From a virus: a DNA stretch of 64,000 nt. The stretch lies in the IMG/VR virus record IMGVR_UViG_3300027906_000009, positions 27,315-91,314 of that record. One strand, 5' to 3'. Positions 24,901 to 63,567 of the stretch are shown here, piece after piece (position 1 is the first letter of the stretch; every line of letters begins with the position of its first letter). The notes under the pieces are model-generated. The model did not search any database and was not told the origin of the DNA. It saw nothing but the letters and a program-made list of their open reading frames with translations. The position numbers and the translations under genes were made by a program.

Positions 24901-27900
24901 TTATTGTACTGTATACTGAAAATTCCTCTGCTTCTCTATCCAAACCATACTTTCCGGATGTTTCGGGGCCGCCCGGTGGGGAAAATCTATTTACGAAAAC
25001 ATGTTCTCTTCTTGTTCTATCTGGTACGAAATGGTTTACTGTGCCTATTATATATTCTGATTTATTAAGAGATCCTGTTAAATTTTTACCTTCTTGTTCT
25101 ACTAAATAATTATTATTATTTGTTCTGCCGGCTGTTTGCACTATTTCATAATCTTTGTGATAATTTCCTTGCTTAATTGGGTCTGTGGAAGCTTTTATGT
25201 TGGCCATGCTATAAAGTCTACTAGATTCTATAGGACTATGAAACATGGTACTATACCTATCTGAAGTTTCGATAGTAAGTGAACTGGTAGTTTCTGATAT
25301 TTTATATGCTTCGATTCTTTCTAAAGTTTGCCCTATTTTGTTTTTTCTGTGAGGGGGCCTAACATCAAGAAAATCAGGCTTATTTATTTTTAGCGAATCT
25401 CCCATAAAGTGGTTATTCGTTATTTTTAATTGTGTTTTAAACTTGCTAAAGTCTGTGCCGACTGAAGAACTGTATAAAGAAAAAGGTAATACAAAGTCTG
25501 CATCTGCATTATTATAATCCTGAATGCCAGAAACATTAGTTTTTGATGTATATCTTTCTTTTTGAATTGGTCTCGTGATGTCATCGCATTGTTTAAACTC
25601 ATATATATCATCTGATGATATTGTTATATTTGTGTTATTTTGATATATTATCTTGTAGAGATCTTCAACTTTATTGGTGTCTTTATTATGCCCTATATTT
25701 AAAATCTTCTGCTTTGTAATTGTGTGTTTGTAGGGCCTAACTAGGTTTCTTAAAGCGTACTTTCTAAAATTGTTTCCTGGGTATGAATTTGAGATTTTAG
25801 TGGTCAATGTATCTTTAATCTCTTTTCTCCCTGTGCTGGTGGGTACCTCTTTTCTATCCTTTTGCCATAAACAATTTTTATTTTCCTGTTGGTCGTGATG
25901 GCCATGCTCCCAATCATATAGCAGTTCATTTATTGACAACATATTAGTTTCAAGTTTTGGTGGCTTAGTATCTATTATCGCGTATTTATGGTGATATTTA
26001 TTTCTTTCAAGTGCATGACTTTCAACTACATTGTGCATGCCTGTGTTGTAAATTGTCGATGCGGCCAGTGTATGCTCCACAAGATTTCCAAACGAGGCGC
26101 CTATCCATTTATAATAATTAACAAATTTTTCAAAACTAATCTCATTCTGTACATTTTCAAAATATTTTTCTTTCAAATATTGCAATAATTTATAATTTGC
26201 TCGATATCTGTTAACTGGTTCACCTATAGCGTTATTAAGCAATTCAACTCCAGAAAAGAAACTTATCATATCTTTAGAAATCACCTCATACATGCTTTTT
26301 TCAAAAGATAGAATATTTGTTTCTGGAGTTAAAGAAAAATCAAATTTATCTACTGGGTTTTCTTTTAACTGTACTTGGTCTAAACCCTTAATGCTTGCTA
26401 ATGGAGTATTTTTAATTTGGTTTATGTAATCCACATACACTATATCTGTCAACTTATTGTCAAAACCATGAGATTTAAAATCATAATTGGTCGACAGGTC
26501 AGAATCATATATTGGAGATGTAATATCTTGTCCGGATGTTTCATCCTCAATAGTGAAATTTGCCGTGTTATTATTAGAAACTTTACTAAAATTTATTCTA
26601 AAAAGTTTTGTGTTTTCTGATTTTATAGTTTGATCTGTGTTAATTTGTTTTGGTCTTAATTTTTGTCTTCCCCTGTGAGTGAAAGTCTTACTTCTTAATT
26701 GCAATTCTTCGTCTGTTAATTGATCCTTCCAAGCACTAAAATTGAGTATTCTTATATCGGTCTTATCTATAACTGAACCTGTAATGTTAGTCTTATTTGC
26801 TCCAATAAAAATAGTTTTATTCGCAGAGTTAAACAGATTGTAATTTGCCCTAGACAATTCTGATGTCAATGAAAAACTATCCATCAATTTATCATCAATA
26901 TAGTTGTATCCTGAAAATATAATTTCATATTTTTCAGTTCCGTGATCAATGAGTGGGCTGCTTGTCTTCTTTCTTATTCTTAGTGATACGTTCCACCTTG
27001 AATCATCGTAGACCTTTTTCAGAAATGGTGTCTTCAAATCTTGTGATAAAAATTTACTAGATTTTAAGACAAAACGCGCTTTGGGATCTACAAGATTTTG
27101 CTTCTCAACAATCACAGTAAAATTGGCATTGTCCGGCGAAGGTGTTACAAAATTATTTTGTACCCCAGATACCTGTTTTATACCGAAAACACTAGATGTA
27201 GATATTTCGTGCTGAGCTTCGACTCTTTTTGCAAAAATAAATGAGCCTTCAAAAGTATACTCGTTTGGCACAGTTGAAGTCGGTATAAAACTTGAGTCGC
27301 CGGCTGATGTGTAGAATTGGTGTAAATTTGCGGAGCTATTATCTCGAAAATTTATTATTTGAACTCTTTCTGCCTTTTTTTCAGTCTTATTGTCTTTAAA
27401 CGGGATTTCACCGCCCACTAGAGAATAAACATCACTAATAACGTCAGTTGAGACGCCGGCTAATTTATATATTGCAGCATACCCAGCTTCAGTGCCTTTT
27501 TTATTGAATATCGCCCTTCGATAATTTTTAATATTTTGATGTATAGTCCTTGCACTGACTTGCGTTGGTTTAGTATATCTAAGGTGGCCGGAAATTTGCT
27601 CCATCTGGTCTAGTAAGGGCTCCTCTTCCTGCAAAATCATTGATGTCATATCTGTGTCAATACCTTCATCCTCTGCTTGTTCTAGCGGTAGCCTTCCAGT
27701 ATTCTGGTTTGATAATCCTGTTTGTATATACTCATCAACACAACCTACAAAGTATTTGTCCCCGTAATCTAAATAATTTTCGTCATAGGATCCTGTAGTG
27801 TTTGTTCCCGCTTGAATCACACCGTCCCAATTGGGGCCTCTAGAGCGAAGAGTAGCATCGAGTTTATTTCTTACTTCATCAAATTGCACTGCCATCATTT

Positions 27901-34311: not shown

Positions 34312-37300
34312 CTAATAATCTTCGCATTCTTCAGAAGGTATTTCTTCGTTATTAATTACTCTGCAGTTTGCCTTTTTTAGTATCATATCTGATTTAAGTG
34401 CAGGAGTCGAAAGCGCTAAGGCAGTCCAAAGCGACAGGGCATGCCCGTATCTGCCGTATTTTCCAACATCATATTTGTTGCCTTTCTTCCAATCATCAGC
34501 ATCTTCAGGATTTAAACAAGGTATATTAAAACCCCTGGACATATCTAAAAATGGAAGATTACCACCGTAAATATACGCGAGGGTCTTTAGTGTAGTTTTC
34601 CCAAGGCGCGCCGGTAATTTTCGCCATGAAGAAGTAACGGCGTATACAACATCCAGCGCGGCTATCGGTGTTATCGGTGCATAGGCCCCTTTTTCTTTGT
34701 TTCGTTGATCAGGCGTATCTCCCCTTGGCAAGAGAAGGCCGGCAGTCGTTGTGTCATCCATGGTACCCTCCCACGCAATCGATTTCCAACCAAAATCTCC
34801 GTATGGGTTGTCCTCGTGTGCGGATTCTATCCTTCTTAAATCACAATTCAAATAATGTTCTCTCATTTCTTGATAAGCAGGATCTAACACTCGAGCAATC
34901 CCTCTAAATATTATAGATGGAAATTGCAGCGCTAATTTTGCAAGGTCTTCAAGCATTTGCAAAAAGAATTCCCCGCCGGGGAAACCAAAACAAGAAGCTT
35001 TTGTTGGGTCTGCTGGAAACTGATCCGTTAAAGTCTTTTGATATTGGTCTGGCTTTAAGGGTATCAAACCCCATTGTTCTCGGGCTGAGGTTGAACAAAG
35101 TTTCATCAAAAAACTTATTGATTGTTTGCAAGATTCAAAAGTTGTAGGTAACTTATTATATCCTCCTAAAATTGATGAAGACATAATAGAGTACATGCCC
35201 ATATATCTTTTTATGGGAAAAATTGTTTCGAACAGATCTCTATATTCTTGCTTTTCTTTTAGTTTCTGAACAATAAAATTTCTAGAAATTTCTCTGTCCA
35301 TGCCATCCTTTAGGATTGATTCGCACGATTCTAGGTCTATTACTCTTTCATGCTTTACCAAAGGTATAGACAGTGCTAGATTATCCTCTAGATAGCCGGT
35401 AGACCGCACCCAGACCCTATATGCTCTTTGGGTTCTAGATATATCACCGCTGCGTATATCTTCAATATTGCATATTTCCCTCATAGCATTATCACTAAAA
35501 ACATCATTTGGCCAGGGCCCAGAAATATTAAAAGTCCCAGATTGATCTTCCCCAGTTGGAATTAGACTTGAATCAAAATTAGATACCGCTAACAGATTTA
35601 GTCTACTGCCATGTTTTATAGTTGAATTTTCAAAAATATCGCGAAGTACTTCTGTGTCAAAAACGTTATTTATTCTTTCTATTAGCATGTTGAAACTTGC
35701 AGTACTTACAATCATTTCACCAGTTTCTTCAGAATTTTGATTAAACTTATCACTAAGTCGTAATCCTAAACCATTAGTATTAGTATTGGCTCGAATATTT
35801 GGGTCTTCTATAATCTCCTTCGTTATAATTTTACCTGATAGTGAAACGTATGTTTCTATGATAAAGTTAGAAGTATTTTTTTCATATACCTTTGATTGGG
35901 TCCTTCCAGGGCCGATAACTTCTTGTGCGGCAGAATATAACAATCCTGGGGCCCCCTGAATCGTCGTAGGGCCGAGAAAGGAAGAGGGTTCGCAAACTGG
36001 TATGTAATTTTTAGTATACCAATCAATACCATCTTCATCTGAAGTGTTGGGGTTAAATACTTGTTTTGAATAATCCGGGAGCTTTATAAGTTCCTCTTCT
36101 ATTAGAGATTTTAAAGCCAAGTCTGTATTTGTTATACCTGTGGTTCTCTCTAAAATATCTCTCCACAAATGTTTACAATTTCGGTTTCGATCCAACTCTA
36201 ATTTTACATGATATATTATATAATCTTTATATAAAGGTTCAGTTATAACCGGTTCTATATCCCAATCTGAAAATGCCAAACCTCCTTTTAGCAGCGTATC
36301 GATAAGACACACTCTAACGAAAGCAACTAACGCTAAATTTTGCAGTGATTTTTCTAGGGGACCTACTGAATCTATTGTCTGATTAAATGCTGAGTTTTCC
36401 GGCTTGCTAGCTTCTTTATAATATTCTTTTTTTGCATCTGATAATATAATTTTATTAAAATCTAAAACGGAATCACTAGTAAGTCCATATCTATTTCTGA
36501 TACATTTATTCTCTTCGTCGATGTTTACTTCCGCTGCGAGTCTATTATGAAGTTGCCCTGCATACTCCTCATCAAAAAGAGGCGACTCTCTAAAACTATT
36601 TCCCATATTTTGAAAAACAGTTTCTGTCACATCTTTGTAAACATCAGTATATAAACCAGAATGTGCGGCTGAAGTAAGAGTATCCGTGGAAATCCCGTTG
36701 TTTTTTAAACTATTGGTTACTATCTTAGAAAAAGCTTCATTTTTGGAAAAATATTTATCTTCACCTCTTTCATTAAATTTTGTTATTCTATCTGGGATGG
36801 ACTCACAGTATTTAAATTGTTTAAAATATCTAGAATTAATCTTTCCTGCAGGGTTTTTTCTTGATTGTAAAATGTGAAAATCACTCTCTACTGAAATATC
36901 AAACCTATCTTGATTTTTTTTCGCGGGTTTCTGGGTAAATACAATGCTTGGAGAATACGAATCCGTAACATTAAATTCTAATTTAATTTTTAAATCGCTT
37001 GGTCTAGGGACATGATCTCTTATTTGCAAACCGGAAAGCTCAGGGGCTATAAATTTTTCTGTTCTTATAAACTTTTGCATCATTAGCAAATGCTTCTCTG
37101 ATATTTGACTTGGCCTATTTTCTAGCGCTGTCTCCAAATCGCCGGATAAAAGGCGTACGCGGTCTGAAATTGCCTTTAATAGGTCTGGGTTATTAATCGC
37201 TGTCTTTTCTACAAAGCCGTGCATTCGATCATAAATGTTCTCTCCACCATAATGCATCCCGATAGCTTTGGTTAAGTCCGCTCTCTGCTCGGCTGTTATT

Positions 37301-40300
37301 AATCCCTGTAGGTATGCTATTTCTTTTACCACCTCTTCTGTCATAGCAGTAAATGGTCCCCCCGCGTAGTCGGTCGTGGCTATTGGCCAATCGATCTCTG
37401 CTGTCGAGTTCAAACCTAAAACATGTGGATGCCAAGGGTAAGAGGATCGAGACCCCGGGTCCTGCGCGGGCCCGATTCCGTCTGGATCGTTGGCGCATGC
37501 AATCGTACTCAGAACAAACATATCTTCATTCTCCGGGTCATTAACTTTTCTCACATACTCTTCGTAACTTAATTTCCTTGGGTGATATTGATCTCCTTCA
37601 GAAGTTTTAGAAAAGACACTATAAGTTAATTTTGTTATACCTTGACTGTCTGTGATATTGAAATAGTTACTCTCTCGACCAGCTTGTGAATGCTGAGCGC
37701 ATATGAAAGGAATATATTTTTCTCCTGTTTGAGGGTCTGTCGTTGGAGTAACTGCATATTTTACATGTACTTTTCTTTTTTGTACACCTCCGGTGTCTGG
37801 GTCTACATATTCAATTTCCTCTGTTTCAAACATTGTATATAACATCTTTGCTTGAAAGGCGGTAATCTCTATTTTTCCATATTCTTTAAGTTTTTCTATC
37901 CGAGTAGATGCATCTTCACGCATCTTTTCCCATGTCTTTTTTAAACTACCCAATGGCTTTGTTTCATTTATAACAATTCCATCAGCGACGCCAAAATCCT
38001 CTGACTGATTAAGTAAAACTTTTATATTCTGGTCTGTGATAATTTTTTGCTGCAATCCTGACTCTGTTGGGTTTTTAATGCCTTCAAGCGCTGAGCGTTT
38101 ATTTCTATATGGCCGCCAGTGCGCAGTGCCCAAATATACTGCGTATTGTTCCCTTATAAGCTTTATATAGTTATTTACCATATGGAGGTTTAAATTTACA
38201 ATAAAACTGCTATGTCGTTTATTTTTATGATCAAGATCAAAATACTCTTCATCACTGTATGTGTGCATTCGGTTGGATTCTCTACCAAAATTAAATTGCT
38301 CAGTTGTGTATGGCTCATCACGAATTTCGTAGGCGAAGTGGCCATTGTGTTCCCTTGGGTCGATTGAAGGGTCACCGATTCGGTCTTCTTCAAGTCTCGA
38401 ACTGATGAGTACTCCTTCTTTGGTTCGTGCTTCATACTGCCATTTTTCTTCTTGGTTACCGTACAACATCGCGCCGACCCTACGCCATGGACCGGTCCAT
38501 GGTTCCGGATAAAGCAATTGAAATATTTTCCCATCGTCATCTTGTTTAAACGTATTCATCCATTTTTTAAATCTTTCTACATTATATCTTATTTTAAATT
38601 TCTCTATATCTCTTAAAATACTTCCTTCTGCGGATAATTTAACAAGATCTGGCACATCACTATCATAAAGGTTTATATATCTATCAGATATTGTTAAACC
38701 GTCCAGATCTAGATCGGATATATAAAATTCAGGCCGATATATGTCGAGAGTATAGTCTCTCTGAAGTGTCTTAATACTGGCGTCACGTGGTCGGCCGGCG
38801 ATGCCGTAAATTTCTTCTCTCTGTTCATATGGAAGAAAAAGTTCTAGGGCGAGATCCGCAGAAGTGTCAAATATAATTGATGGATCTGATTTGGCATTCG
38901 TGACAAATGAATTGCGTTGTGCCTGTGTTACATCCAAATTCAGTACGCCGGCGTTTTGATACATCTGATCATCCGACTCAAGAATTTCTTTATAGTTTTC
39001 TATTTCCAAGATTCCGATATCAATATCTTCTTTAAGTTTTTCGTCTCTAAGAATAAATTGTTGAACTTCTTGAGGTGTCAGCATATATTCCTCGTAGTCA
39101 GATGCACTCCCTATCAAATCATCGTACTCTTGTTTAGTTAGTTCTTGTTTTAATACCTCTGCCTTGGACATAAAGGATGATTGTTCTAAAGCTGTTCCAT
39201 ACAGGGCCAGACGCGTTGAATTAGCTTCCATTATTAGTTCGTTATCTGTAAAATATGTAGCTTCCTTGGTAGCGTCAGGGTGGTCCGCGGTTGAGATTGA
39301 CATGTAAGGCACATAGGTGGATAAAGTTCCTTGGTATGCCAATTTGGCGGACATAAAGACATTTTCTGCAGTGGTCTGTAATTCTCTTTCTAAGAAGTCT
39401 GGAAGGGTATTGATGATCGCATTTGGGTTACCAATTCCGAATCCTGGTGGGACCATGCTACCTATCTCCATTCCTGAAAACTCTCTTAAGGAATTTTCAG
39501 TATTTTTCAGGTCTCTTTCGGCCTTATCTAACACTCTTTGTAACTCTTCTGAAGTTACGCAGTCCCCATCTCCAGCCTGTAGTCTGTTCCTTATTGACTG
39601 TAGCTCTGATGCGATATCTGAACAATCTGGTGCCTGAGATGTTTCAAAGGCTGTAATCTGAGAAATTTGTTCGCAAAGATTGTCTGGAACATATGAGCCC
39701 AAAACTTGGAAAAAGTTAGCGACTTCATCGTCGGTCATCTCTGTCTGCATTCCTTCAGATGTCACTCTTCTTACCATAGACATCCCGGCCGCGTCCAAAG
39801 TTTGGCCGGCCATGAGGCCGCACAATTCATTTCCGGTTACAATTTTTGCTACGTCTCCGAAAGCCTTTTTAGCACTCTCTGCCTTATCTTTTTCCACTGC
39901 GTCGCCTAAATTAGTCAAGGATTGCGCTAACGCTTGGTCAAATATTGGGCCGCCGGCGGAGGATCCTGCGGCGATAAACTCTCTCAATTGTTCTTCACAA
40001 AAAGGAGATACCAAACTATCAATCAATGTAGATATAAAGTTCAATAATAATTGATACAATAATTTCGCTAGCTGTTCTTTAAGAAATTTCCACTGATTAG
40101 GGTATTGGCCCCAAATTGGAACTTTCGGGAATGGCGGCAAATAAAGATCTGGAAGCTTTAGATTGACAGTTGGCATCTTTATACATTTCAAGTAATCACA
40201 AAGAAGTGATGCTAAATCTATTTTATCCAAAAATTGATCATACAAATCCCCGACGGTCTGTACTTTACCAGCCAATTTAAAGGCGTCATTCTCATTACCT

Positions 40301-43300
40301 TCAAAAGTTTGTCCATCCTTGTGGAGGCCGGTAGACTGTTTCCACCACTGGCTTGCAGGGTCTTCAAAATTTCTTTGCCACCAATTTTTTTTGTAAGAAT
40401 TCCCTTCAGATTTGCCTTTTTTGGTTACTGGCTTTAGCCCTGAAGTGTACTTTGATAAGTATTTAGAGGACAAATGCTTGTCCATATTAATGCCTATATC
40501 TTTACAGGCGCCGCGGCCGTCGTCAAGTAAACTGCCAAAAGCTTGAGTCCATGGTCCGTCGCCAATTGGAAGCCGGTCTCCTGATTTGTTAGTCATCTTT
40601 AGAATATTACTTATGTAATTAACAGTTCTTGGCCTAGTGAATGTTTTTGAAATTCTTCCGTTGTTCCGGATCTGTGCTTCGTCAATAAACATTTTTGCCG
40701 TTATGGCGGCGGGCGCGCTGGCGCCGGGGGCGTTGGCGGTGCCTTTGAATGGTGCTTCGACTACTAGTTTTGTAATTTTTTTTCCTATTAGGGGTCCAAA
40801 TCCAGCGCTGGACTCATCATAAACAAATTGAAATGAAAAATTTAACATAATATCATTTGGTCTGTTTTCAAGTGCGCCGGCGATGAATTTTTGCATCCCG
40901 CCGCGTTTAGTTTTTATCAGAGTTTCAACATCAGAGACAAATTCACTAAGCAAAGATCCTTCGTTGTTTGGTTCAAAATTACTTCGAGGGTCTATATCTA
41001 ACCCTTCTGAAAGGGCTATATCATATGATTCTGATAAGTCTTTTTTTACTATTTTTATACGTTCTTTTAAATTTACAAGAGGAATCTTTAGGGTGTTACT
41101 TTGTTGTAATTCTCTATATTTTTTCTTATCCTTATCACTCAAGGTGCCTGATATAGTTCCATCATCAAATGCGGCCATCTGCTTAAACTGTTCATCGGTT
41201 GCAGAAGTTATATCATTCATATCTCCCATAGTGGCACCTAGGACAGAATCGACGCCCAAACCAGGCAGAGACATCACAGCTTTAGTATATGTATAATCAT
41301 CTCCGCCTAAAGTATTCACACCTAAAAATTCCGAACCTGCAGAAGAGGCCGCGGCGTTCATATCAAATGGCCCTAAGGAGCCTAAATTCACCTCGCCCGG
41401 GCCAGTGCCCATATCTTGCTCTTTATATCCGTCCTTTAGGCGCCTGACAATCTCTCTTCTTCTTTTCCTTGCATGCATACGCCAGTCGTCAAGAGTACGC
41501 TGAGAATCCCCCGAAAGGTCTGCGCAAAAGAGATCTGCAGGAGACGGGGAATCTCCTGCGGGATCTCCTTCTCCAGATTCCTCTCTGATAACTTCCCCGT
41601 CTAATATAAAATTTAATTTTTCTGCATTTATGTGAAAAAGGGCCCTATATGTTTGCCCTGTTCTTAAGGACGGCGTCCTATATTCTATAAATTTTATTAA
41701 AGGATCAGTTCGACCAATATTACTTATGTCCCTCCATGATTGATAATTGTTTTTATCTTCATCAGAACTGCTTTGTAATATATCATCTGTGGTGAGTACC
41801 CAAAAGTTTCTGGACTTTTCAGATTGAGTTGGCTCTTTCTCAAACTCTTGTTTTAAGTATTTTATTTGTTCTTTAAGTGTTTCATATTTTTCTAAACACG
41901 CCACTTCCTCGTTGTTAAGCTGTAGATGTTCTGACCCTTTGATATCCACTGTTGGTAAAAGCATCTGAACAGACTGATCATTGATGTTTTCCTCGTAATA
42001 TACTCCGTCGTATGATACCGTGCGACCCTTTATTCTACCTTCGTCATCATAGTCTATATACTTTTTTATATATTCTATATCACAACCATTTGGCATTTCG
42101 TCTGAAAGTCCCCAATTAAATAATTGATCGACTTGTGGATTGCGATCGCCGCCTGAAAAGTCATTATTAAGCTGTATTTGCTTAATTTCAATATCTTGCT
42201 GTATTTTTACGAATCTTGGTATAGCCATCTTCATGGCTTTGTTGGTAGATGATGGATATATTCCTGAATGTTCTGGTTCCGGTGTTGGTCTGACATTGCC
42301 AAACTGGGCTGATTGAAATGATGATAAGTATTGTTCGTTTGCAGGAATACACCAAATGTCTGGTTTTTCATAAAAGTCTAAAACTTGTCTTAGGGCCCTG
42401 TTTTCCAGATTAACAATTGTCTGCTCATCATACTGTGGGAATGGACCGCATTGCTCTAAAACAAAATCAGTTTCCGTGAAATGTCCAGTTGTAAATTTAT
42501 CGATATAAAATGGTTCTGGATTTGTAAACGGATCTGGGTAAAAGAAGCGTTTTAATGATTGTTCTCTTTGGTCCGAGGTTGGCATCAAAGAGTCCAATAA
42601 TTCTGAATTATTTAATACTTTAATTGCAGATGAATATAAAATACTCTTTTGGTCGTAAATCACATTATATTCTAAAGATGCATACCTGTAATCGAAATTA
42701 GTCGCGGAGTCGTCAGCACGTACCCAATTTCTACGTTCATCGACATGAGCCTTATATCTAGCCAAATCATATTCATTATTATATTCTAATGCATATCGCT
42801 CTAACTGGTCGGCATGCTGCGGATCGGTCGCTAAATATCCAGATGTTTTTAAATCATCAATAGTTTGACCGTAGGAGCCTCTTTGGGCTTCTTTTGCTAG
42901 AACTTCGGGGATTATATCTACGACCGGGCCGTTTTTATGAACTGCTGGTATATGATTATACCCTTGAAGACCGATAATGGTATGGGGCCTCCAGCCATGC
43001 ATAACCGCCAAAGTGGCTTCGAATAAGTTACCAACCTCTTGGTTGAAAAGATCTAACATTGCTGTCAAAACGCGGAGTATGACGCGGTCGTATCTTTCTC
43101 CATCGCGCATTTCAGGAAAATATTCCTGCTGATCATATTCTTCTCCTAAGGGGTCCGGCTCGTACCACGCCGCGTCTTGTCTCTCATCCAATCGCTGACC
43201 CTCGTATGTAGTATCCTTACCTTCCGGCGCATAAGCAATGTCCTTCCAAGTGCCGCGGCTTGCTGGGTCTTTTTCTACGTCTTCTGCAGTTTTTCTTCTA

Positions 43301-43665
43301 TTTGCTAATATTCCTCCTATACCATATTTCTCGAACAAATAACAAGTTATTAAAAACTGATTTTTAATTTGAAAGGCTAGTAGTGCTGATTTAAGTGAAT
43401 CATCAAAAGTAGCAGCCTGCATTAAAGAAATTGGGCGCCCTGTATTACAATCAAACCAACGCTGTGAATCTAACGGGATTGAAGGGTCAAGAGGAGTATT
43501 CATAGGATCCAAATCTGGCCTTGAGGCCTCTAAACCATCAAGATCTTTTATTATATTTAAAGCTATTTTTATAGCTATTATATCTTTGCCGACTTGTCCA
43601 AATACTCTCGGCCCGAATGGTAAAGTTCCGTTCTCATTTATTATTTCTATTCTATATGGTCCCAT
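34312..43665 (-). CDS. Giant virion protein (3117 residues), probable baseplate/tail component
   Basis: A second giant gene. No enzyme motif was found. The first 130 residues (FGQVGKDIIAIKIALNII, then FDDSLKSALLAFQIKNQF) have the rhythm of a peptidoglycan-binding helical bundle, a weak suggestion only. A Pro-rich hydrophobic stretch (LPDLYLPPFPKVPIWGQYP) near residue 1180 is followed by hydrophobic helices that could sit at or cross a membrane during infection. Acidic helical segments dominate the rest. AGGTGA precedes the ATG. It lies between a gp25-like gene and smaller baseplate-type genes, so tail or baseplate assembly is likely, but whether it is a tape-measure, hub or wedge part cannot be told from this sequence. 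Confidence 0.75.
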   Translation of the reverse strand: MGPYRIEIINENGTLPFGPRVFGQVGKDIIAIKIALNIIKDLDGLEASRPDLDPMNTPLDPSIPLDSQRWFDCNTGRPISLMQAATFDDSLKSALLAFQIKNQFLITCYLFEKYGIGGILANRRKTAEDVEKDPASRGTWKDIAYAPEGKDTTYEGQRLDERQDAAWYEPDPLGEEYDQQEYFPEMRDGERYDRVILRVLTAMLDLFNQEVGNLFEATLAVMHGWRPHTIIGLQGYNHIPAVHKNGPVVDIIPEVLAKEAQRGSYGQTIDDLKTSGYLATDPQHADQLERYALEYNNEYDLARYKAHVDERRNWVRADDSATNFDYRYASLEYNVIYDQKSILYSSAIKVLNNSELLDSLMPTSDQREQSLKRFFYPDPFTNPEPFYIDKFTTGHFTETDFVLEQCGPFPQYDEQTIVNLENRALRQVLDFYEKPDIWCIPANEQYLSSFQSAQFGNVRPTPEPEHSGIYPSSTNKAMKMAIPRFVKIQQDIEIKQIQLNNDFSGGDRNPQVDQLFNWGLSDEMPNGCDIEYIKKYIDYDDEGRIKGRTVSYDGVYYEENINDQSVQMLLPTVDIKGSEHLQLNNEEVACLEKYETLKEQIKYLKQEFEKEPTQSEKSRNFWVLTTDDILQSSSDEDKNNYQSWRDISNIGRTDPLIKFIEYRTPSLRTGQTYRALFHINAEKLNFILDGEVIREESGEGDPAGDSPSPADLFCADLSGDSQRTLDDWRMHARKRRREIVRRLKDGYKEQDMGTGPGEVNLGSLGPFDMNAAASSAGSEFLGVNTLGGDDYTYTKAVMSLPGLGVDSVLGATMGDMNDITSATDEQFKQMAAFDDGTISGTLSDKDKKKYRELQQSNTLKIPLVNLKERIKIVKKDLSESYDIALSEGLDIDPRSNFEPNNEGSLLSEFVSDVETLIKTKRGGMQKFIAGALENRPNDIMLNFSFQFVYDESSAGFGPLIGKKITKLVVEAPFKGTANAPGASAPAAITAKMFIDEAQIRNNGRISKTFTRPRTVNYISNILKMTNKSGDRLPIGDGPWTQAFGSLLDDGRGACKDIGINMDKHLSSKYLSKYTSGLKPVTKKGKSEGNSYKKNWWQRNFEDPASQWWKQSTGLHKDGQTFEGNENDAFKLAGKVQTVGDLYDQFLDKIDLASLLCDYLKCIKMPTVNLKLPDLYLPPFPKVPIWGQYPNQWKFLKEQLAKLLYQLLLNFISTLIDSLVSPFCEEQLREFIAAGSSAGGPIFDQALAQSLTNLGDAVEKDKAESAKKAFGDVAKIVTGNELCGLMAGQTLDAAGMSMVRRVTSEGMQTEMTDDEVANFFQVLGSYVPDNLCEQISQITAFETSQAPDCSDIASELQSIRNRLQAGDGDCVTSEELQRVLDKAERDLKNTENSLREFSGMEIGSMVPPGFGIGNPNAIINTLPDFLERELQTTAENVFMSAKLAYQGTLSTYVPYMSISTADHPDATKEATYFTDNELIMEANSTRLALYGTALEQSSFMSKAEVLKQELTKQEYDDLIGSASDYEEYMLTPQEVQQFILRDEKLKEDIDIGILEIENYKEILESDDQMYQNAGVLNLDVTQAQRNSFVTNAKSDPSIIFDTSADLALELFLPYEQREEIYGIAGRPRDASIKTLQRDYTLDIYRPEFYISDLDLDGLTISDRYINLYDSDVPDLVKLSAEGSILRDIEKFKIRYNVERFKKWMNTFKQDDDGKIFQLLYPEPWTGPWRRVGAMLYGNQEEKWQYEARTKEGVLISSRLEEDRIGDPSIDPREHNGHFAYEIRDEPYTTEQFNFGRESNRMHTYSDEEYFDLDHKNKRHSSFIVNLNLHMVNNYIKLIREQYAVYLGTAHWRPYRNKRSALEGIKNPTESGLQQKIITDQNIKVLLNQSEDFGVADGIVINETKPLGSLKKTWEKMREDASTRIEKLKEYGKIEITAFQAKMLYTMFETEEIEYVDPDTGGVQKRKVHVKYAVTPTTDPQTGEKYIPFICAQHSQAGRESNYFNITDSQGITKLTYSVFSKTSEGDQYHPRKLSYEEYVRKVNDPENEDMFVLSTIACANDPDGIGPAQDPGSRSSYPWHPHVLGLNSTAEIDWPIATTDYAGGPFTAMTEEVVKEIAYLQGLITAEQRADLTKAIGMHYGGENIYDRMHGFVEKTAINNPDLLKAISDRVRLLSGDLETALENRPSQISEKHLLMMQKFIRTEKFIAPELSGLQIRDHVPRPSDLKIKLEFNVTDSYSPSIVFTQKPAKKNQDRFDISVESDFHILQSRKNPAGKINSRYFKQFKYCESIPDRITKFNERGEDKYFSKNEAFSKIVTNSLKNNGISTDTLTSAAHSGLYTDVYKDVTETVFQNMGNSFRESPLFDEEYAGQLHNRLAAEVNIDEENKCIRNRYGLTSDSVLDFNKIILSDAKKEYYKEASKPENSAFNQTIDSVGPLEKSLQNLALVAFVRVCLIDTLLKGGLAFSDWDIEPVITEPLYKDYIIYHVKLELDRNRNCKHLWRDILERTTGITNTDLALKSLIEEELIKLPDYSKQVFNPNTSDEDGIDWYTKNYIPVCEPSSFLGPTTIQGAPGLLYSAAQEVIGPGRTQSKVYEKNTSNFIIETYVSLSGKIITKEIIEDPNIRANTNTNGLGLRLSDKFNQNSEETGEMIVSTASFNMLIERINNVFDTEVLRDIFENSTIKHGSRLNLLAVSNFDSSLIPTGEDQSGTFNISGPWPNDVFSDNAMREICNIEDIRSGDISRTQRAYRVWVRSTGYLEDNLALSIPLVKHERVIDLESCESILKDGMDREISRNFIVQKLKEKQEYRDLFETIFPIKRYMGMYSIMSSSILGGYNKLPTTFESCKQSISFLMKLCSTSAREQWGLIPLKPDQYQKTLTDQFPADPTKASCFGFPGGEFFLQMLEDLAKLALQFPSIIFRGIARVLDPAYQEMREHYLNCDLRRIESAHEDNPYGDFGWKSIAWEGTMDDTTTAGLLLPRGDTPDQRNKEKGAYAPITPIAALDVVYAVTSSWRKLPARLGKTTLKTLAYIYGGNLPFLDMSRGFNIPCLNPEDADDWKKGNKYDVGKYGRYGHALSLWTALALSTPALKSDMILKKANCRVINNEEIPSEECEDY

Positions 43666-45737: not shown

Positions 45738-46421
45738 CTACCTGTTCCACTTTGTTTTAAATGTTCTATATTTTTCTCTGAGTTTATTCAAATTATTAAC
45801 CACTTGCTTTGTATTTAAACCTGTCAACTCTCTTAAATATAGATAGACTGCTTTTTTATTAAATATTTCTATATCTTCAATATTATGAAGAAGTACTTTG
45901 ACGGCCTCTAATACTGCTTTTTCATTTTCTTTTAAATTTCCCGTATCCCATTTATCAACTTGTTTCAAAAGACAAAGCCAAAATTCAGCCTCTGCTCTGT
46001 CACTTAAATAATCTTGAGCTTTTCCCGCGGCGCCTAGGGCATCTGGGCCTCCAGTTTGTACTATATTTTCGTAAGAAACTTCTTTTCTAATTTTTTTTGA
46101 ATTTTGCTTTACTTTGTGAATAAACCAATTTTTAGTTACAACTGAAAAGTAAGAGAATGCTTTTGATCCTTTGTTCGGGTCGTATTTATCTAATATTGTT
46201 GTTAACCATATTTTACAATCATCTCTTAAATAGTCTATATTTGGTAAATTATTGAATTTATAAGTGAAGATTATTTTGTTTACCATTTCATCAAAAGCAG
46301 GTTGAATAAGTGTCATATAAAGTTTTGATTTTTCCTGTCTGCTTGAGGAAAGTGCGTATCTCACGATTGCATCTTCATGAACTTTTGTAAAATAATTATT
46401 TTTTGTTCTCTTTTTCCTCAT
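45738..46421 (-). CDS. Late-transcription sigma factor, T4 gp55-like
   Basis: A 227-residue protein related to the minimal sigma factors of T4-type phages. The central stretch YDPNKGSKAFSYFSVVTKNW followed by FIHKVKQ is the conserved region 2-like core that recognises the late -10 box and contacts RNA polymerase. Basic N-terminal residues and a helical C-terminal part complete it. Length (T4 gp55 is 185) is slightly greater. AGGA lies five bases before the ATG, inside the end of the upstream gene (26-nt overlap). It should redirect host polymerase to structural genes; T4 late promoters are TATAAATA, which also occurs here but not more often than base composition predicts. Confidence 0.83.
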   Translation of the reverse strand: MRKKRTKNNYFTKVHEDAIVRYALSSSRQEKSKLYMTLIQPAFDEMVNKIIFTYKFNNLPNIDYLRDDCKIWLTTILDKYDPNKGSKAFSYFSVVTKNWFIHKVKQNSKKIRKEVSYENIVQTGGPDALGAAGKAQDYLSDRAEAEFWLCLLKQVDKWDTGNLKENEKAVLEAVKVLLHNIEDIEIFNKKAVYLYLRELTGLNTKQVVNNLNKLREKYRTFKTKWNR

Positions 46422-57502: not shown

Positions 57503-58249
57503 ATGACAATAAAAGCCAACATTTTATTAGGATTTTTAATTTTATTATTATCTGGGTGCTCTGTTAGTACTTCTTATGGGCATATAAGGAACCCCCCTAC
57601 TAAAAGTTTTGTAAAAATACTGCACACCATAGAAGTTAAATCTTGTTCTGACCCGAAAGATAAAAATTGTCCTCTTGGTGTGCATGCCAGATCTGGGAGT
57701 GGTATGGCTATAAAACTAATTAATGGACATATGACAGTTTTAACTGCTGGTCATGTTTGTGATGCTGGGCCCACGAAAGCTTTGAAAGAATACAATCAAA
57801 CAGTGATGGTTGTTGATCACAACTCCGATATACATCAAGCTTGGCCAATCCTAATATCTCAAAACAATAGCAAGGGCGCCCCAGATGCATGCATTCTTTA
57901 TGTTCCAACCTTGAATGTTAAACAAGTAATCTTTAGCCGAAAGAAACCCAATATAGGTGAAGAGCTTTATTATATTGGCGCGCCATTGGGCATTTACCAT
58001 CCGCCAAACGCTTTGATATTCAAAGGAATTTATAGTGGAAAAGCAAATGCTTCTACTGCATTAATTACTGCTCCAGCTATTGGAGGATCTAGCGGCTCTG
58101 CAGTAATTAATATGAAAAACGAAATTGTTGGCCTGATTTGGGGTTCAAATCTTAGGTTTCCGCATGCTAGTGTGATGACTAATCATAGGGCTTTTATATT
58201 GTTTTTAGATGCAGCCAAGAAGAAGTTACTAAAAGATTTGAAAAAATAA
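57503..58249 (+). CDS. Secreted trypsin-like (S1/V8-type) serine protease lipoprotein
   Basis: The only plus-strand gene. A 248-residue protein with a lipoprotein signal (MTIKANILLGFLILLLSGCS, lipobox LSGC, Cys19). The chymotrypsin-fold catalytic triad is visible: H84 in TAGH, D128 in APDACILYV and S197 in GGSSGSAV. Four further Cys in the first 90 residues may form disulfides in the periplasm. The start ATG has no ribosome binding site and sits 3-9 bases after AT-rich -10-like hexamers, so the message may be almost leaderless. It ends tail-to-tail with the next minus-strand gene two bases away. It is probably a self-contained accessory (moron-type) gene acting at the host envelope; the target is unknown. 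Confidence 0.85.
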   Translation: MTIKANILLGFLILLLSGCSVSTSYGHIRNPPTKSFVKILHTIEVKSCSDPKDKNCPLGVHARSGSGMAIKLINGHMTVLTAGHVCDAGPTKALKEYNQTVMVVDHNSDIHQAWPILISQNNSKGAPDACILYVPTLNVKQVIFSRKKPNIGEELYYIGAPLGIYHPPNALIFKGIYSGKANASTALITAPAIGGSSGSAVINMKNEIVGLIWGSNLRFPHASVMTNHRAFILFLDAAKKKLLKDLKK

Positions 58250-59414: not shown

Positions 59415-59491
59415 TGGTGGGCCCACCTGGACTTGAACCAGGAACCACCGGTTTATGAGACCGACGCTCTAACCAATTGAGCTATGAGCCC
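59415..59491 (-). tRNA. tRNA with CAU anticodon, predicted tRNA-Ile2 (AUA-reading after lysidine modification)
   Basis: A complete 77-nt cloverleaf with encoded CCA. The acceptor pairs GGGCTCA with TGGGCCC, including C4-G69 and a U5-G68 wobble; D arm GCTC/GAGC; anticodon loop CTCATAA; T arm CCTGG-TTCAAGT-CCAGG. CAU could be Met or Ile2. The T-loop TTCAAGT matches E. coli Ile2 rather than elongator Met (TTCGAAT), C4-G69 is a known TilS determinant, and a tilS-like gene lies just upstream. It lacks the initiator-tRNA C1/A72 mismatch. The isotype is inferred; the tRNA itself is certain. Confidence 0.95.
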
Positions 59492-59516: not shown

Positions 59517-60119
59517 TCATAAGTAAGTTTCAACTATTTTTTTTCTAATAGTAGTTCTAATGCCTGGATTGATTTTCAAAATCCCGGGCATGAGATTGTG
59601 CCTAACATGGTTTCTAATGTATTCTGTTTTTAAATTAGTGGGATCCTCTACCCATTTGACACTCTTCCTTTCTGCATATTTTTTAATTGTATTTCTAGAT
59701 GTCATTAAAAAAGGACGATAAATGTTCTCACCTCTTCTGTATGGTATGAGTTTAGAGTTTCCGTGCATGGAGGACATTACCCAAGTTTCCACAACATCAT
59801 CAAGGTGATGACACGTTATTAGGAAGTTTGTTTTTATTCTTCCAAAGAAAGAATATCTTTCATTCCGCCAGAATTCCTCCATAGACCTCTTACCTTTAAT
59901 TCCTTTAATTTTGCCAATAAATAGATCTAAGTTATTATTATTAGCATAATCCTCAACAAACTGTTGGGATTTGTGGGAGTGAATAGTGTCATGATTAAAG
60001 TATGCTAATCTCACTTTTCTTCTACCCTGCAGCAGAAAATGAGCAATCACCATACTATCAACACCGCCCGAGCAAGCTATCATCACGTTATGAGGAATTT
60101 TTCCTATAATTCTAATCAT
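59517..60119 (-). CDS. tilS: TilS-like tRNA(Ile)-lysidine synthetase, N-terminal catalytic domain only
   Basis: A 200-residue PP-loop ATPase. SGGVDS (17-22) binds ATP; HHLDDVVET and the RPFL...WVEDPTN...IRNHVRHNLMP region match the TilS N-terminal domain, which converts C34 of tRNA-Ile2(CAU) to lysidine so that it decodes AUA. Bacterial TilS usually has extra C-terminal domains; here only the catalytic core is present, as in the smallest family members. Its gene ends 25 bases before the phage CAU tRNA. A sigma70-type promoter is placed so that transcription should start at the ATG, and there is no ribosome binding site. Confidence 0.88.
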   Translation of the reverse strand: MIRIIGKIPHNVMIACSGGVDSMVIAHFLLQGRRKVRLAYFNHDTIHSHKSQQFVEDYANNNNLDLFIGKIKGIKGKRSMEEFWRNERYSFFGRIKTNFLITCHHLDDVVETWVMSSMHGNSKLIPYRRGENIYRPFLMTSRNTIKKYAERKSVKWVEDPTNLKTEYIRNHVRHNLMPGILKINPGIRTTIRKKIVETYL

Positions 60120-60125
60120 ACTTAT

Positions 60126-60153
60126 ATATTACCAAAAAATTTAGATTTGTCAA
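60126..60153 (-). promoter_or_regulatory. Sigma70-type promoter giving a leaderless tilS message
   Basis: On the minus strand TTGACA is followed after 16 bases by TAATAT and then six bases to the ATG of tilS. With the usual -7 to +1 distance the transcript should begin at or very near the A of the start codon. No ribosome binding site is present. An overlapping TATAAATA (60157-60164) comes from the last codons of cysK and is probably coincidental. Confidence 0.65.
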
Positions 60154-60155
60154 GT

Positions 60156-61025
60156 TTATTTATATAAAGACATATATCTTTCGCCGCGGTCGCATAATAT
60201 AGTAACAACTATACCACTTGGATTCATTTGCTCACAATATCTTTCTGATGCCAACAAATTTGCGCCCGATGAGATTCCGACCAAGATACCTGTGTTTTTT
60301 GTGAACTCTTGGGCTCTGGAGATTGCTTCGTCTGTTTTTATTTCTATAATTCTATCTGCCTTATTTGGATTAAAAAGAAAGTCTGCTCCGTCGCCGATGC
60401 CTTGTATACCATGATTTTTCTCATGGGGTCGCACTAGACACATCTTGGTCCTAAGATTGTTGCTCTCCTTATATCTCCTTATTCCCTCCATTGTGCCGCC
60501 GGTGCCGGCGCCGTGCACAAATGCTGACCATTGGTGTTTTGTATCTATAACCTGTTTGTGAATTTCTGGTGCTATATTTGCCTGATGGCATATTATATTG
60601 TAATTGTTTGTAAATTGCTTTGGAGACCAAGCGTTTTCATTTGCTAGTAAGTATTGATCACGCATTGCGATCGCGCCTTGGAAATCATTATCTGGAGCTT
60701 CAATGATCTTTGCTCCGTAAGCCAACATCATATCCCTTCTTTCTTGGGACATATTTTTTGGCATAAATATTAAACACTCGAGACCCAGTGCTGCGGAAAT
60801 GGACGCGAGTGCAATCCCAGTATTACCAGAAGTTGCCTCGCAAAGAACAGTATCTTTTCGGATTCTTCCGAACATTTTCTCTCTCTCCACAATATAAAAT
60901 ATTACTCGATCTTTTATAGAACCAGTTGGATTGTAGGTCTCCAGCTTAGCGTATATATGTGATGTGATTTTTATAAGAGGTGTGTTTCCTATAAGTTGTT
61001 TTATTGTATTTAAATTATTTATCAT
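60156..61025 (-). CDS. cysK: Cysteine synthase (O-acetylserine sulfhydrylase, CysK/CysM type)
   Basis: A 289-residue PLP enzyme that makes cysteine from O-acetylserine and sulfide (or thiosulfate in CysM). The PLP Lys is K38 in NPTGSIKDR; the substrate loop is EATSGNTGIAL; the phosphate loop is GAGTGGTMEG; IQGIGDGADFL follows. Length is near bacterial CysM/CysK (about 300). The ATG overlaps the upstream gene by 11 nt. Near it are an A-type Fe-S carrier, a thioredoxin-like protein and ThyX, so a boost to cysteine, Fe-S and redox supply in the infected cell is plausible. Which sulfur donor is used cannot be told. Confidence 0.9.
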   Translation of the reverse strand: MINNLNTIKQLIGNTPLIKITSHIYAKLETYNPTGSIKDRVIFYIVEREKMFGRIRKDTVLCEATSGNTGIALASISAALGLECLIFMPKNMSQERRDMMLAYGAKIIEAPDNDFQGAIAMRDQYLLANENAWSPKQFTNNYNIICHQANIAPEIHKQVIDTKHQWSAFVHGAGTGGTMEGIRRYKESNNLRTKMCLVRPHEKNHGIQGIGDGADFLFNPNKADRIIEIKTDEAISRAQEFTKNTGILVGISSGANLLASERYCEQMNPSGIVVTILCDRGERYMSLYK

Positions 61026-61701
61026 CTCTTATTGTCATTAAATTGCGGTCTGTTGCTTTTTGAATTGTCCACATTTTATTTGGAGCATGCACAAAATCTA
61101 GGCCTGGTACTATATAATTTCCGTATTCCTCTAATACGTCTTTTATTGTATTTCCTTGTAAACCCCAATTGTTATTTAGCCAAGGGATTAGTATATCATA
61201 ATATTGTCTTGATTTTGACAACATAGATATTTTTTTTGTTTGGTTTTTTATTGATTTTTGTCTAACCATGGAAATTTCGCTTGGAGATTCTATAACCCAA
61301 ACTAAAGGAAAATTCCTAATTCCTTCATCATTTACATCTTGTTCTACCAATCCATCCTCAAGGCCTTGGTGAATGACATCTATATCTAAGCGAGAGAAAA
61401 TATTATTTTTTCTATCTTTTCGAAATGTATTAGAAATTTCTTTTGCTTTTTTTATTGCTTTAGATTCCCATTCTGAATCTTCTTCTCTTTTACTTTTCAA
61501 ATATTGCGCTATATCTGGGTCTGTAGGAGTGGTTTTTTTTAAAATCTCTTTTTCTATACTTGATAATTGATTGTATTTTTGCTTTCCTGATTGTGGTGTA
61601 TAATTTTTTTTAACCTTAAGATGATTTGGCCAATAATTTTGTTCTTCTATAAAATTATTCCATCTTTCAAAGATTAATTTTATATTGTTTTTCTTGTCCA
61701 T
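61015..61701 (-). CDS. Unknown protein with N-terminal IxE-type helix
   Basis: A 228-residue charged, helical protein. Its N-terminus NIKLIFERWNNFIEEQNYW resembles the WxxFLxE type of N-terminal helix seen on many marine phage proteins and has an I-E-E site at residues 18-20. The rest has no recognised domain; a LVWVIESPSEISMVRQKS stretch near residue 135 could be a buried core. No ribosome binding site precedes the ATG, but TCTAAT lies six bases before it, compatible with a leaderless message. A 10-bp direct repeat overlaps that region. The gene is followed by cysK with an 11-nt overlap. Confidence 0.65.
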   Translation of the reverse strand: MDKKNNIKLIFERWNNFIEEQNYWPNHLKVKKNYTPQSGKQKYNQLSSIEKEILKKTTPTDPDIAQYLKSKREEDSEWESKAIKKAKEISNTFRKDRKNNIFSRLDIDVIHQGLEDGLVEQDVNDEGIRNFPLVWVIESPSEISMVRQKSIKNQTKKISMLSKSRQYYDILIPWLNNNWGLQGNTIKDVLEEYGNYIVPGLDFVHAPNKMWTIQKATDRNLMTIRDDK

Positions 61702-61708
61702 GTATTAA

Positions 61709-61728
61709 TTAGATGAATTTAGATGAAT
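61709..61728. repeat. Tandem 10-bp direct repeat before the 61015-61701 gene
   Basis: Two adjacent copies of ATTCATCTAA (minus-strand reading) lie just upstream of the ATG; the second forms the TCTAAT that may act as its -10. It could be a regulatory site or a slippage duplication. Confidence 0.6.
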
Positions 61729-61744
61729 TGTTGGCTAAATTTGC

Positions 61745-62473
61745 CTATTTTTTAATATTACCAGGATTCGCAGGGTCATCAGATAATTCTATAGGATCCG
61801 GCATAGAACTATCTAAAGATATCTTATTCATGGTCATCCATTGTTTTAGCTTTTCTTGGTCCCCTGACATATTAAGGAAAATATTATTCTTTAATATTAC
61901 CCCTTTAGGATTTTCAGGAGTCAAAAGAAGCAATATCGGTATAGATTTTATAGGGCCCTGTAACTTTTCAATCATTTTAATATATTTTCTGTTCTGGTTT
62001 ATTTGTGATTGAGAATCCAGATCTACATAAATCCATTGTTTTGCTGAGACTCCTGCAAGAGTAAACATTTTTTTTATTTCTTTGCAGGGCGGGCACCAAG
62101 AGGTACTAAGTTGTACTAAAATTGCCTGTTTGGATTCACTTTCCGTCAACTGTCGGCGCGTGAAAATTCGGGATATTGATGTATCTATTTCTTCCCTTAT
62201 TATCGATTTTAACTTTTCTTTTGTTATTTTCATAATATTTATATTTCCCTTATTAAGTATTACTTGTTCTTTTAGATTTATTGTTTGTTTCTTGGTTTCA
62301 GGGGGCCCAAAAGTTATGCATGGGTCTTGTCCGCAGCCGCAATTATTATTCTTCGCTATTTTTATTTTGATCATTTCTTCTTCTGGTTCTGTGTTTATTT
62401 CATCATCAGAACTAGGATCACACATCTTGTGAGTCTTGAACTCTGATTCTTTTATTAAGATTTTTATACTCAT
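61745..62473 (-). CDS. Thioredoxin-like protein with N-terminal extension
   Basis: A 242-residue frame. Residues 115-235 form a thioredoxin fold with active site STSWCPPCKE (C127, C130) and a SIPILLLL segment giving the cis-Pro. The first 80 residues contain a Cys-rich CGCGQDPC and an acidic run. At residue 81 an internal ATG (62233) begins MKITKEKLKSIIREEI, the same helical motif as the two tiny proteins near 5.7 kb, with AAGGGA about 13 bases ahead. The protein may start there, giving a 162-residue product, or at 62473, where TACTAT lies seven bases before the ATG. It probably reduces disulfides; the substrate is unknown. Confidence 0.8.
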   Translation of the reverse strand: MSIKILIKESEFKTHKMCDPSSDDEINTEPEEEMIKIKIAKNNNCGCGQDPCITFGPPETKKQTINLKEQVILNKGNINIMKITKEKLKSIIREEIDTSISRIFTRRQLTESESKQAILVQLSTSWCPPCKEIKKMFTLAGVSAKQWIYVDLDSQSQINQNRKYIKMIEKLQGPIKSIPILLLLTPENPKGVILKNNIFLNMSGDQEKLKQWMTMNKISLDSSMPDPIELSDDPANPGNIKK

Positions 62474-62529
62474 ATTTTAAATAGTATCTTTCTACTTAAA
62501 ATGATAAATCTTAATTTTGTATAATAAAT

Positions 62530-63216
62530 CTATTTGCTGTTTTTTTGGTAGGAACTGACAGTTACCGGAAAAAGTTCGTTTGCAATCGACAAACATGCCC
62601 GGGCAACTTGTTGTATTTCCCACTGGGCTCCTGAGTGGATTCTGAGGTTAATAAACTTTAATAAATTACCTAGGTTACAAGTGCCATAATATTCGGTATA
62701 TAAATTTTGTGGCAAAACGCCTCTTGCCTGCTCTCTGCAGACGCCAGACTTTATCAAAGAATTGTATAGGTATAAACTAGATCGATTATGAGCAACAACA
62801 GCGTCAGATGCTGACAAAGTGGTTGAATCTAATTCGGGATTCACCAATTCATCATTACTAGCTTGCCTATTAGATTTATGTTGTGTTCTGAATACATCTG
62901 GAGAATAAAATTTCATATCTACATCTGTATATCTTCTACTTATCTCATTGTATGACCAAGTTCTGTGTCTATGATGTTGAGATCTTATGAATAGGGGAAC
63001 TGTAAACTTGAATGTAATTACATTATGTTCTAATGTTGAGGTATGTTTATGTTTGATGAGGTAATTTATGAGTTTTTTATCTCTGTCATCTAAATTGTCC
63101 TTGTTAATACCGAATGAAACGCGAGCGGAATTAACGACAGTTAGATCGCTACCCATGTGGTCAACATATTCAACTGCTCCAATATTATCATGAAATATTT
63201 CTATTCTTTTGTTCAT
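62530..63216 (-). CDS. thyX: Flavin-dependent thymidylate synthase
   Basis: A 228-residue ThyX, which makes dTMP from dUMP with methylene-tetrahydrofolate and FAD. The signature RHRTWSYNEISRR (residues 83-95) is complete. Length is normal for the family. It supplies thymidine nucleotides for phage replication and is common in phages. The ATG has no ribosome binding site, but a strong promoter is positioned so that the transcript should begin at the start codon. It is followed by the thioredoxin-like gene after a 56-base gap. Confidence 0.93.
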   Translation of the reverse strand: MNKRIEIFHDNIGAVEYVDHMGSDLTVVNSARVSFGINKDNLDDRDKKLINYLIKHKHTSTLEHNVITFKFTVPLFIRSQHHRHRTWSYNEISRRYTDVDMKFYSPDVFRTQHKSNRQASNDELVNPELDSTTLSASDAVVAHNRSSLYLYNSLIKSGVCREQARGVLPQNLYTEYYGTCNLGNLLKFINLRIHSGAQWEIQQVARACLSIANELFPVTVSSYQKNSK

Positions 63217-63222
63217 GGACTT

Positions 63223-63251
63223 ATTATATCAAAAAGTAAATAATATTTCAA
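63223..63251 (-). promoter_or_regulatory. Extended -10 sigma70-type promoter giving a leaderless thyX message
   Basis: On the minus strand TTGAAA, then 17 bases ending in TGA, then a perfect TATAAT, then six bases to the thyX ATG. The TG extension and exact spacing make a strong promoter whose expected +1 is the A of the start codon. No ribosome binding site can fit between. Confidence 0.8.
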
Positions 63252-63252
63252 A

Positions 63253-63567
63253 CTAAATTGAAAAACTTTCTCCGCAGCCGCACGTCCTTTTTGCATTTGG
63301 GTTTACGAATTTGAAGCCAGATTGGTTTAATTCATCGATGAAGTCTATCTGTGTGCCCATTAGATATAAATAACTCTTTGGGTCTACATAGATTTTCACT
63401 CCATGGCTCTCCAAGACTTTGTCTTTTTCTTTTTCAGTATCGAATTTCAACTGGTAAGTAAAACCGGAGCAACCTCCTCCTTGAACGGCAGCCCTTATTC
63501 CAGTTTCTTTTTTTTCTGCTAGGAGTGTTTTAATTTTGTTTGCAGCAAATTCAGTTAACGTAACCAT
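63253..63567 (-). CDS. A-type iron-sulfur carrier (IscA/ErpA/HesB-like)
   Basis: A 104-residue protein with the three ligand cysteines of A-type carriers: GGGCSGFTY (C33) and CGCGESF (C96, C98). It carries Fe-S clusters from the assembly system to target enzymes. The ATG at 63567 (MVTLTEFAANKI) overlaps the end of the preceding gene region; the frame is open to 63594, but those residues precede the family's usual start. No ribosome binding site, so translation is probably coupled to the virion-like gene before it. Marine phages often carry such genes; targets here could include the Cas4-like nuclease. Confidence 0.88.
   Translation of the reverse strand: MVTLTEFAANKIKTLLAEKKETGIRAAVQGGGCSGFTYQLKFDTEKEKDKVLESHGVKIYVDPKSYLYLMGTQIDFIDELNQSGFKFVNPNAKRTCGCGESFSI

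Follow-up and report, generated by a model that had tools for sequence, protein, structure and literature searches.

Promoters that abut start codons point to leaderless mRNAs of two types in a group of uncultivated T4-like marine phages

In a 64,000-nucleotide stretch of viral DNA (the window; positions 27315-91314 of the 91,314-base virus record IMGVR_UViG_3300027906_000009), four neighbouring genes each appear to have a short, complete promoter of their own that directly adjoins the start codon and would give rise to messenger RNA (mRNA) without a leader, a reading to which we assign a probability of roughly 80%. Two of the genes, thyX and tilS, carry a promoter of the sigma70 type, while the other two, with start codons at 61701 and 62473, carry an unrelated element, NCTANTTA, that is probably the late promoter of this phage group. 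These four are the only genes of this genome with either arrangement, and all are neighbours.

The thyX gene (62530-63216, minus strand) encodes a flavin adenine dinucleotide-dependent thymidylate synthase of 228 amino acids (Pfam Thy1, E 2e-47; PHROG 85, E 9e-67), and tilS (59517-60119, minus strand) encodes a tRNA(Ile)-lysidine synthase-like PP-loop protein of 200 amino acids (Pfam ATP_bind_3, E 2.5e-36). Upstream of thyX, the -35 box TTGAAA (63246-63251, minus strand) is separated by 17 nucleotides from the -10 box TATAAT (63223-63228, minus strand), which ends 6 nucleotides before the ATG at 63216. The tilS promoter is laid out in the same way on the same strand, with TTGACA (60148-60153), which is retained in several orthologues, a spacer of 16 nucleotides, and TAATAT (60126-60131) ending 6 nucleotides before the ATG at 60119. 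In both, a TG stands one base ahead of the -10 box and makes it an extended -10 element; no other site between 58 and 64 kb has this TG together with 10 or more matches to the 12 consensus positions. Each promoter nearly fills the gap of 36 nucleotides that separates its gene from the one upstream. Since the -10 box occupies -12 to -7 in sigma70 numbering, the A of the ATG falls at +1, and this register predicts mRNA 5' ends at 63216 and 60119. Neither upstream region contains GGAG, GAGG or AGGA. A first-pass annotation made from the letters of this DNA had placed both promoters six bases before the ATG and had reported that the two genes have no ribosome binding site; boxes, spacers and coordinates confirm the placement, and the missing purine motifs agree with the second statement.

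The register is a property of a class of genes in this phage group. For every distance, a -35/-10 matrix was used to score the 2,919 gene starts of 22 related genomes, made up of 12 related records (1504 starts, the discovery set), 6 found later by their transfer-messenger RNA (tmRNA) tags (648 starts) and 4 more distant portal relatives (767 starts); a second record, G002, is partly identical to G001 and was excluded from counts. A strong sigma70 promoter lies at a distance of 6 nucleotides from 33 of the 2,919 starts, in 22 families, with 15, 5 and 13 cases in the three sets, compared with means of 1.08, 0.5 and 1.0 for other distances up to 12 nucleotides and with 0-2 cases in dinucleotide shuffles. 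Among 45,716 internal ATGs the rate at distance 6 is 0.02%, as against 1.1% at gene starts, and this register and that of the late-type motif described below are both 57-112 times rarer at internal ATGs. Three further features, none of which played a part in picking the 33 genes, set them apart from other genes: Shine-Dalgarno sites precede only 1/33 (50% elsewhere, p 7e-9), the base before the ATG is a pyrimidine in 28/33 (40% elsewhere, p 2e-7), and the TG of an extended -10 box is present in 18/33 (6%, p 1e-13). RNA polymerase favours a pyrimidine just before a purine start. In other marine viruses (1,423 gene starts) the same scoring found 142 sigma70 promoters at 14-36 nucleotides but only 2 at distance 6. 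Cultivated phages had no leaderless peak either, in small samples, with distance-6 counts of 0 in T4 (50 kb) and, in two cultivated relatives, of 1 in Flavobacterium phage immuto (100 kb) and 0 in Microcystis phage Mel-JY01 (100 kb).

The genes at 61701 and 62473 belong to a different class. The first (61015-61701, minus strand) encodes 228 amino acids with no Pfam or PHROG match, and no relatives of it were found in viral contigs; the second (61745-62473, minus strand) encodes a thioredoxin-like protein of 242 amino acids (PHROG 22 thioredoxin domain, E 1.5e-7). Their starts read TCTAATTA-ATAC-ATG and ACTATTTA-AAAT-ATG, with the two late-type motifs at 61706-61713 and 62478-62485 on the minus strand, and both motifs contain NCTANTTA ending 4 nucleotides before the ATG, a register that predicts leaderless mRNAs with 5' ends at 61701 and 62473. 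The first-pass annotation had viewed these as sigma70 promoters with poor -35 boxes (TCTAAT six bases and TACTAT seven bases before the ATG). The letters are as it gave them, but we rejected weak sigma70 promoters as the explanation, since the sigma70 scores are 5.4 and 4.7, compared with 12.6 for thyX and 10.7 for tilS, and the NCTANTTA register fits both genes.

No upstream element is commoner in the group than NCTANTTA, which occurs, strand-specifically, in the upstream regions of hundreds of other genes. Among 8-mers, ACTATTTA shows the strongest enrichment in front of genes, being found 168 times where 9.8 were expected and only on the strand of the gene. ACTANTTA is the group's commonest strand-specific upstream motif in the window and its relatives, probably its late promoter. 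NCTANTTA ends exactly 4 nucleotides before the ATG in 43 genes (25 families), with 20, 17 and 6 genes from the three sets and counts of 0-4 in shuffled sequence, and a smaller second peak at 5 nucleotides comprises 11 genes. All 43 late-class genes have an ATG start preceded by a pyrimidine (43/43, p 9e-18). Shine-Dalgarno sites precede 5/43 of them, compared with 50% of genes generally and 79% of those with the motif 15-60 nucleotides upstream. The two promoter types behave alike: either is accompanied by a Shine-Dalgarno site when it lies farther upstream, but not when it adjoins the start codon.

A candidate reader of the motif is encoded in the window, where the gene at 45738-46421 (minus strand) specifies a gp55-like late sigma factor of 227 amino acids (PHROG 234 late sigma, E 8.5e-4); its relative in genome G006 matches the same family with E 6.5e-6. 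The search for a Pfam Sigma70_r2 sigma factor found none, and the candidate came to light through gp55 instead. Such a protein is encoded in nearly all of the genomes, with 57-80% identity, and we therefore take NCTANTTA to be, probably, the late promoter of this phage group, read by the phage's own gp55-like sigma factor.

Comparison with the upstream regions of relatives bears out the class, whose register recurs among the 22 genomes, and tilS, whose orthologues in part keep the promoter, but not thyX. The tilS promoter lies at 6 nucleotides in G000, G036, G046, G048 and G049, at 7 in G005, at 9 in G003 and at 12 in G001/G002, and the orthologues that keep such a short-distance promoter share 61-71% identity. 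On the tilS tree the promoter state requires fewer changes than it does with shuffled labels, 2 as compared to 5. In G021 the leaderless promoter sits on the gene directly before tilS instead.

Taken together, these observations suggest a mechanism in which transcription would start at the A of the ATG or no more than one base away from it, producing a leaderless mRNA on which ribosomes would begin translation by recognising the 5'-terminal AUG directly. For thyX and tilS, the promoter would be of the host sigma70 type, a TTGACA-like -35 box, a spacer of 16-17 nucleotides, an extended TGnTATAAT and 6 nucleotides before the ATG; for the genes at 61701 and 62473, it would be NCTANTTA-nnnY-ATG, read by the gp55-like sigma factor of the phage itself. 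The likely advantage is compactness, in that an accessory gene in a tight row could keep a promoter of its own in a gap of about 36 nucleotides or less.

The same compactness could also be the whole explanation, with promoters lying near the ATG merely owing to short gaps, transcription starts being variable, and translation of these genes depending on read-through transcripts and on coupling to the preceding gene. The gaps before tilS and thyX are indeed short (36 nucleotides), most genes lie in rows on one strand, and some orthologues of the same genes stand in rows with no promoter of their own. However, tight packing by itself gives no reason to expect a register of exactly 6 (or 4) instead of anything from 3 to 9, a pyrimidine in 43/43 and 28/33 genes, or the loss of Shine-Dalgarno sites only where the promoter is at the start codon, and we consider this account very unlikely. 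Somewhat less improbable, although still unlikely, are very short leaders of 1-12 nucleotides with ribosomes binding near the 5' end and a loose register. With the tilS promoter at 9 nucleotides (G003) or 12 nucleotides (G001/G002), the leaders would measure about 3 and 6 nucleotides, and the second peak of the late motif at 5 nucleotides (11 genes) points in the same direction, but in both classes the peak spans a single base, and the ATG follows a pyrimidine, as expected if transcription starts at its A.

The exact register of NCTANTTA to the ATG in genes that lack Shine-Dalgarno sites could also mark it as a translation signal, an AT-rich start context and not a promoter. This is the least probable of the alternatives, as the strand-specific copies at 15-60 nucleotides in hundreds of upstream regions, 79% of them with a Shine-Dalgarno site, are promoter-like, and a late sigma factor is encoded. 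Finally, the leaderless set might be a regulon for an altered ribosome, for example one in which a phage bS21 replaces that of the host, in line with the particular ribosome state that the first-pass annotation raised. In an extended form of this idea, host-sigma and late-sigma promoters would serve a dedicated gene set that benefits from a translation state of the phage's own making, bS21 ribosomes being one example, such that accessory genes would be translated when Shine-Dalgarno messages are not, or vice versa. The bS21 genes found in 15/19 of these phages speak for a regulon of this kind, but bS21 is common in marine phages (PMC6375957), Microcystis phage Mel-JY01 has a phage bS21 yet shows no leaderless peak in 100 kb, and G036 has the leaderless class with no bS21 match, in a record that is possibly incomplete. 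The regulon is improbable, and we hold the induced translation state to be equally doubtful. One bS21 gene lies at G000:21174-21326 (minus strand), outside the window, and 14 other records also have one. A RegB-like nuclease, which would cut GGAG sites and from which leaderless messages might offer an escape, was found in none of 19 records, but the family matched no control genome either, so this result is not evidence of absence.

Several points weigh against leaderless transcription from the two promoter types. We infer the transcript 5' ends, as well as the polymerase and sigma factor of each class, the timing and the advantage, from sequence features. The genomes are related, and their genes are not fully independent, as reflected in the 22 families for 33 sigma70-class genes and the 25 families for 43 late-class genes; gene starts were taken from a simple open reading frame caller, and some records may be incomplete. 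The scoring matrix was built on what is generally known of E. coli promoters, and the score cut-off was chosen by hand, although the peak appears at 8, 9.5 and 11 alike. The late motif was discovered, and its register counted, in the same genomes; the link from sigma factor to motif consists in the presence of both, and the window's own sigma candidate matches PHROG 234 weakly (E 8.5e-4). Among the 13 distinct tilS orthologues, 5 have no short-distance promoter and are placed in gene rows. Lastly, no promoter was found at the corresponding place for thyX orthologues in 80 related loci and 6 relatives of the same group, where the gene sits elsewhere, and the thyX case therefore rests on the enrichment of the class.

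The suggestion of the first-pass annotation that a whole block of metabolic genes is leaderless and early holds in part. Leaderless placement of the four neighbours, which do form a single block in this genome, is supported by the class statistics, the held-out genomes and the controls. Between tilS and the 61701 gene, however, a pyridoxal phosphate-dependent, cysteine synthase-like enzyme (60156-61025, minus strand; Pfam PALP, E 8e-56) overlaps the end of the preceding gene by 11 nucleotides and has no promoter at distance 6, and this gene looks translationally coupled and not leaderless; its orthologue in G048 has the late motif 4 nucleotides before the ATG. Nor does the block appear to be all early, as the genes at 61701 and 62473 carry a motif probably read by a late sigma factor, which would make that part of the claim wrong for two of the four genes.

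Across the genomes, the leaderless set is mostly one of accessory genes and not of metabolism only, including IscA, IscU, NeuB, cytidylyltransferases, polymerase-like, RuvC-like and virion-type proteins, and small membrane proteins. In the window, an IscA-like iron-sulfur protein gene (63253-63567, minus strand) is part of a row and has no promoter of its own, and the gene has a leaderless sigma70 promoter in G001, G003 and G018. Leaderless genes also cluster: in the 13 tilS records, 26/44 other leaderless genes lie at most 15 kb from tilS, where 12.5 would be expected, and none of 20,000 simulations reached as high a count.

Directly linked to tilS is a tRNA gene with a CAU anticodon (59415-59491, minus strand), 26 nucleotides after tilS, which ARAGORN calls tRNA-Met(cat) and which is probably tRNA-Ile2. 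Its G1-C72 pair argues against an initiator, and its C4-G69 pair is as in known Ile2. A tRNA(CAU) is present in 14/14 records with tilS (10-26 nucleotides after it in 13), compared with 1/9 records that do not have tilS, where its sequence is different. The window's tilS product has the PP-loop catalytic domain of TilS (ATP_bind_3) with an SGGVDS motif and 42% identity to phage proteins annotated as TilS. TilS alters the CAU anticodon of tRNA-Ile2 so that it decodes AUA, and the pair is thus probably a self-contained AUA-decoding kit in which the tRNA is the likely TilS substrate. In this phage, the leaderless promoter of tilS would drive the kit. The TilS proteins of jumbo phages MIJ3 and PA5oct (PMC6892783) are, like the window's protein, to which they show 42% identity, short phage TilS proteins; the passages of that paper on jumbo-phage TilS mention no paired substrate tRNA, in contrast to the tRNA(CAU) in every tilS record here.

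The virus itself is an uncultivated T4-like marine myovirus, with portal, terminase, sheath and head proteins that match T4-like myovirus families. The identity of its portal protein is 80% to many contigs of marine viruses and falls to about 40% for cultivated phages, and a DNA search with a stretch of one relative found no match to cultivated phages. Searches for a host gave zero matches to the tmRNA-tag pattern among 84,980 genomes, and the only matches to the portal protein, at 56-59% identity, came from two metagenome-assembled genomes of unrelated groups. The tmRNA genes, with tags of the form ANDD[VI]E.....ALAA, occur in many relatives (including L195, L198, L207 and L222), and the tag pattern is unmatched in GTDB bacterial genomes. 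The window also holds two giant open reading frames on the minus strand, at 18974-29332 and 34312-43665 (3,452 and 3,117 amino acids), the second with no PHROG match. Its one convincing plus-strand gene, at 57503-58249, encodes a trypsin-like peptidase (Pfam Trypsin_2), and L167 has a related peptidase gene at the same place, likewise on the opposite strand.

One of the closest known parallels is found in bacteria, where TA-led leaderless genes have a TANNNT -10 box centred about 10-12 nucleotides upstream of the start codon and no Shine-Dalgarno site, and are common in Actinobacteria and Deinococcus-Thermus (Zheng et al. 2011, PMC3160421). The sigma70-type genes described here resemble these in the -10 box near the start codon and in the missing Shine-Dalgarno site, but differ in that they belong to virulent-type T4-like phages, comprise about 1% of genes, have a clear -35 box and an extended -10 box, and stand alongside a majority that uses Shine-Dalgarno sites and a second, non-sigma70 promoter class. 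Among phages, the lambda cI mRNA, which starts at its AUG, is a well-known single leaderless case (cited in PMC3160421 and PMC9031893), whereas the genes described here, accessory ones and others, number in the dozens and span an entire phage group. The late promoter elements of T4, TATAAATA, and of cyanophages, NATAAATA, are read by gp55 (PMC2984593). Like them, the late class has one short element, rich in A and T, close to -10, no -35 box and a gp55-type sigma factor, but the consensus of the element is (A)CTANTTA and, in a subset of genes, the element lies at the start codon itself; neither TATAAATA, which is rare, nor NATAAATA has a peak near the gene starts of these genomes. We found no earlier report of leaderless placement of two types in the open-licence papers that were searched.

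Leaderless phage mRNAs are usually discussed by way of single examples such as lambda cI. Here, 76 of about 2,920 gene starts (about 2.6%) look leaderless in a group of abundant marine phages, with two unrelated promoter types. For the annotation of such genomes this is a warning, as automatic start callers that expect Shine-Dalgarno sites may misplace these starts. For the biology of the group, the analysis gives uncultivated phages a promoter motif and two transcription classes, and it offers naturally occurring cases in which to study the circumstances of, and reasons for, leader loss in phages.

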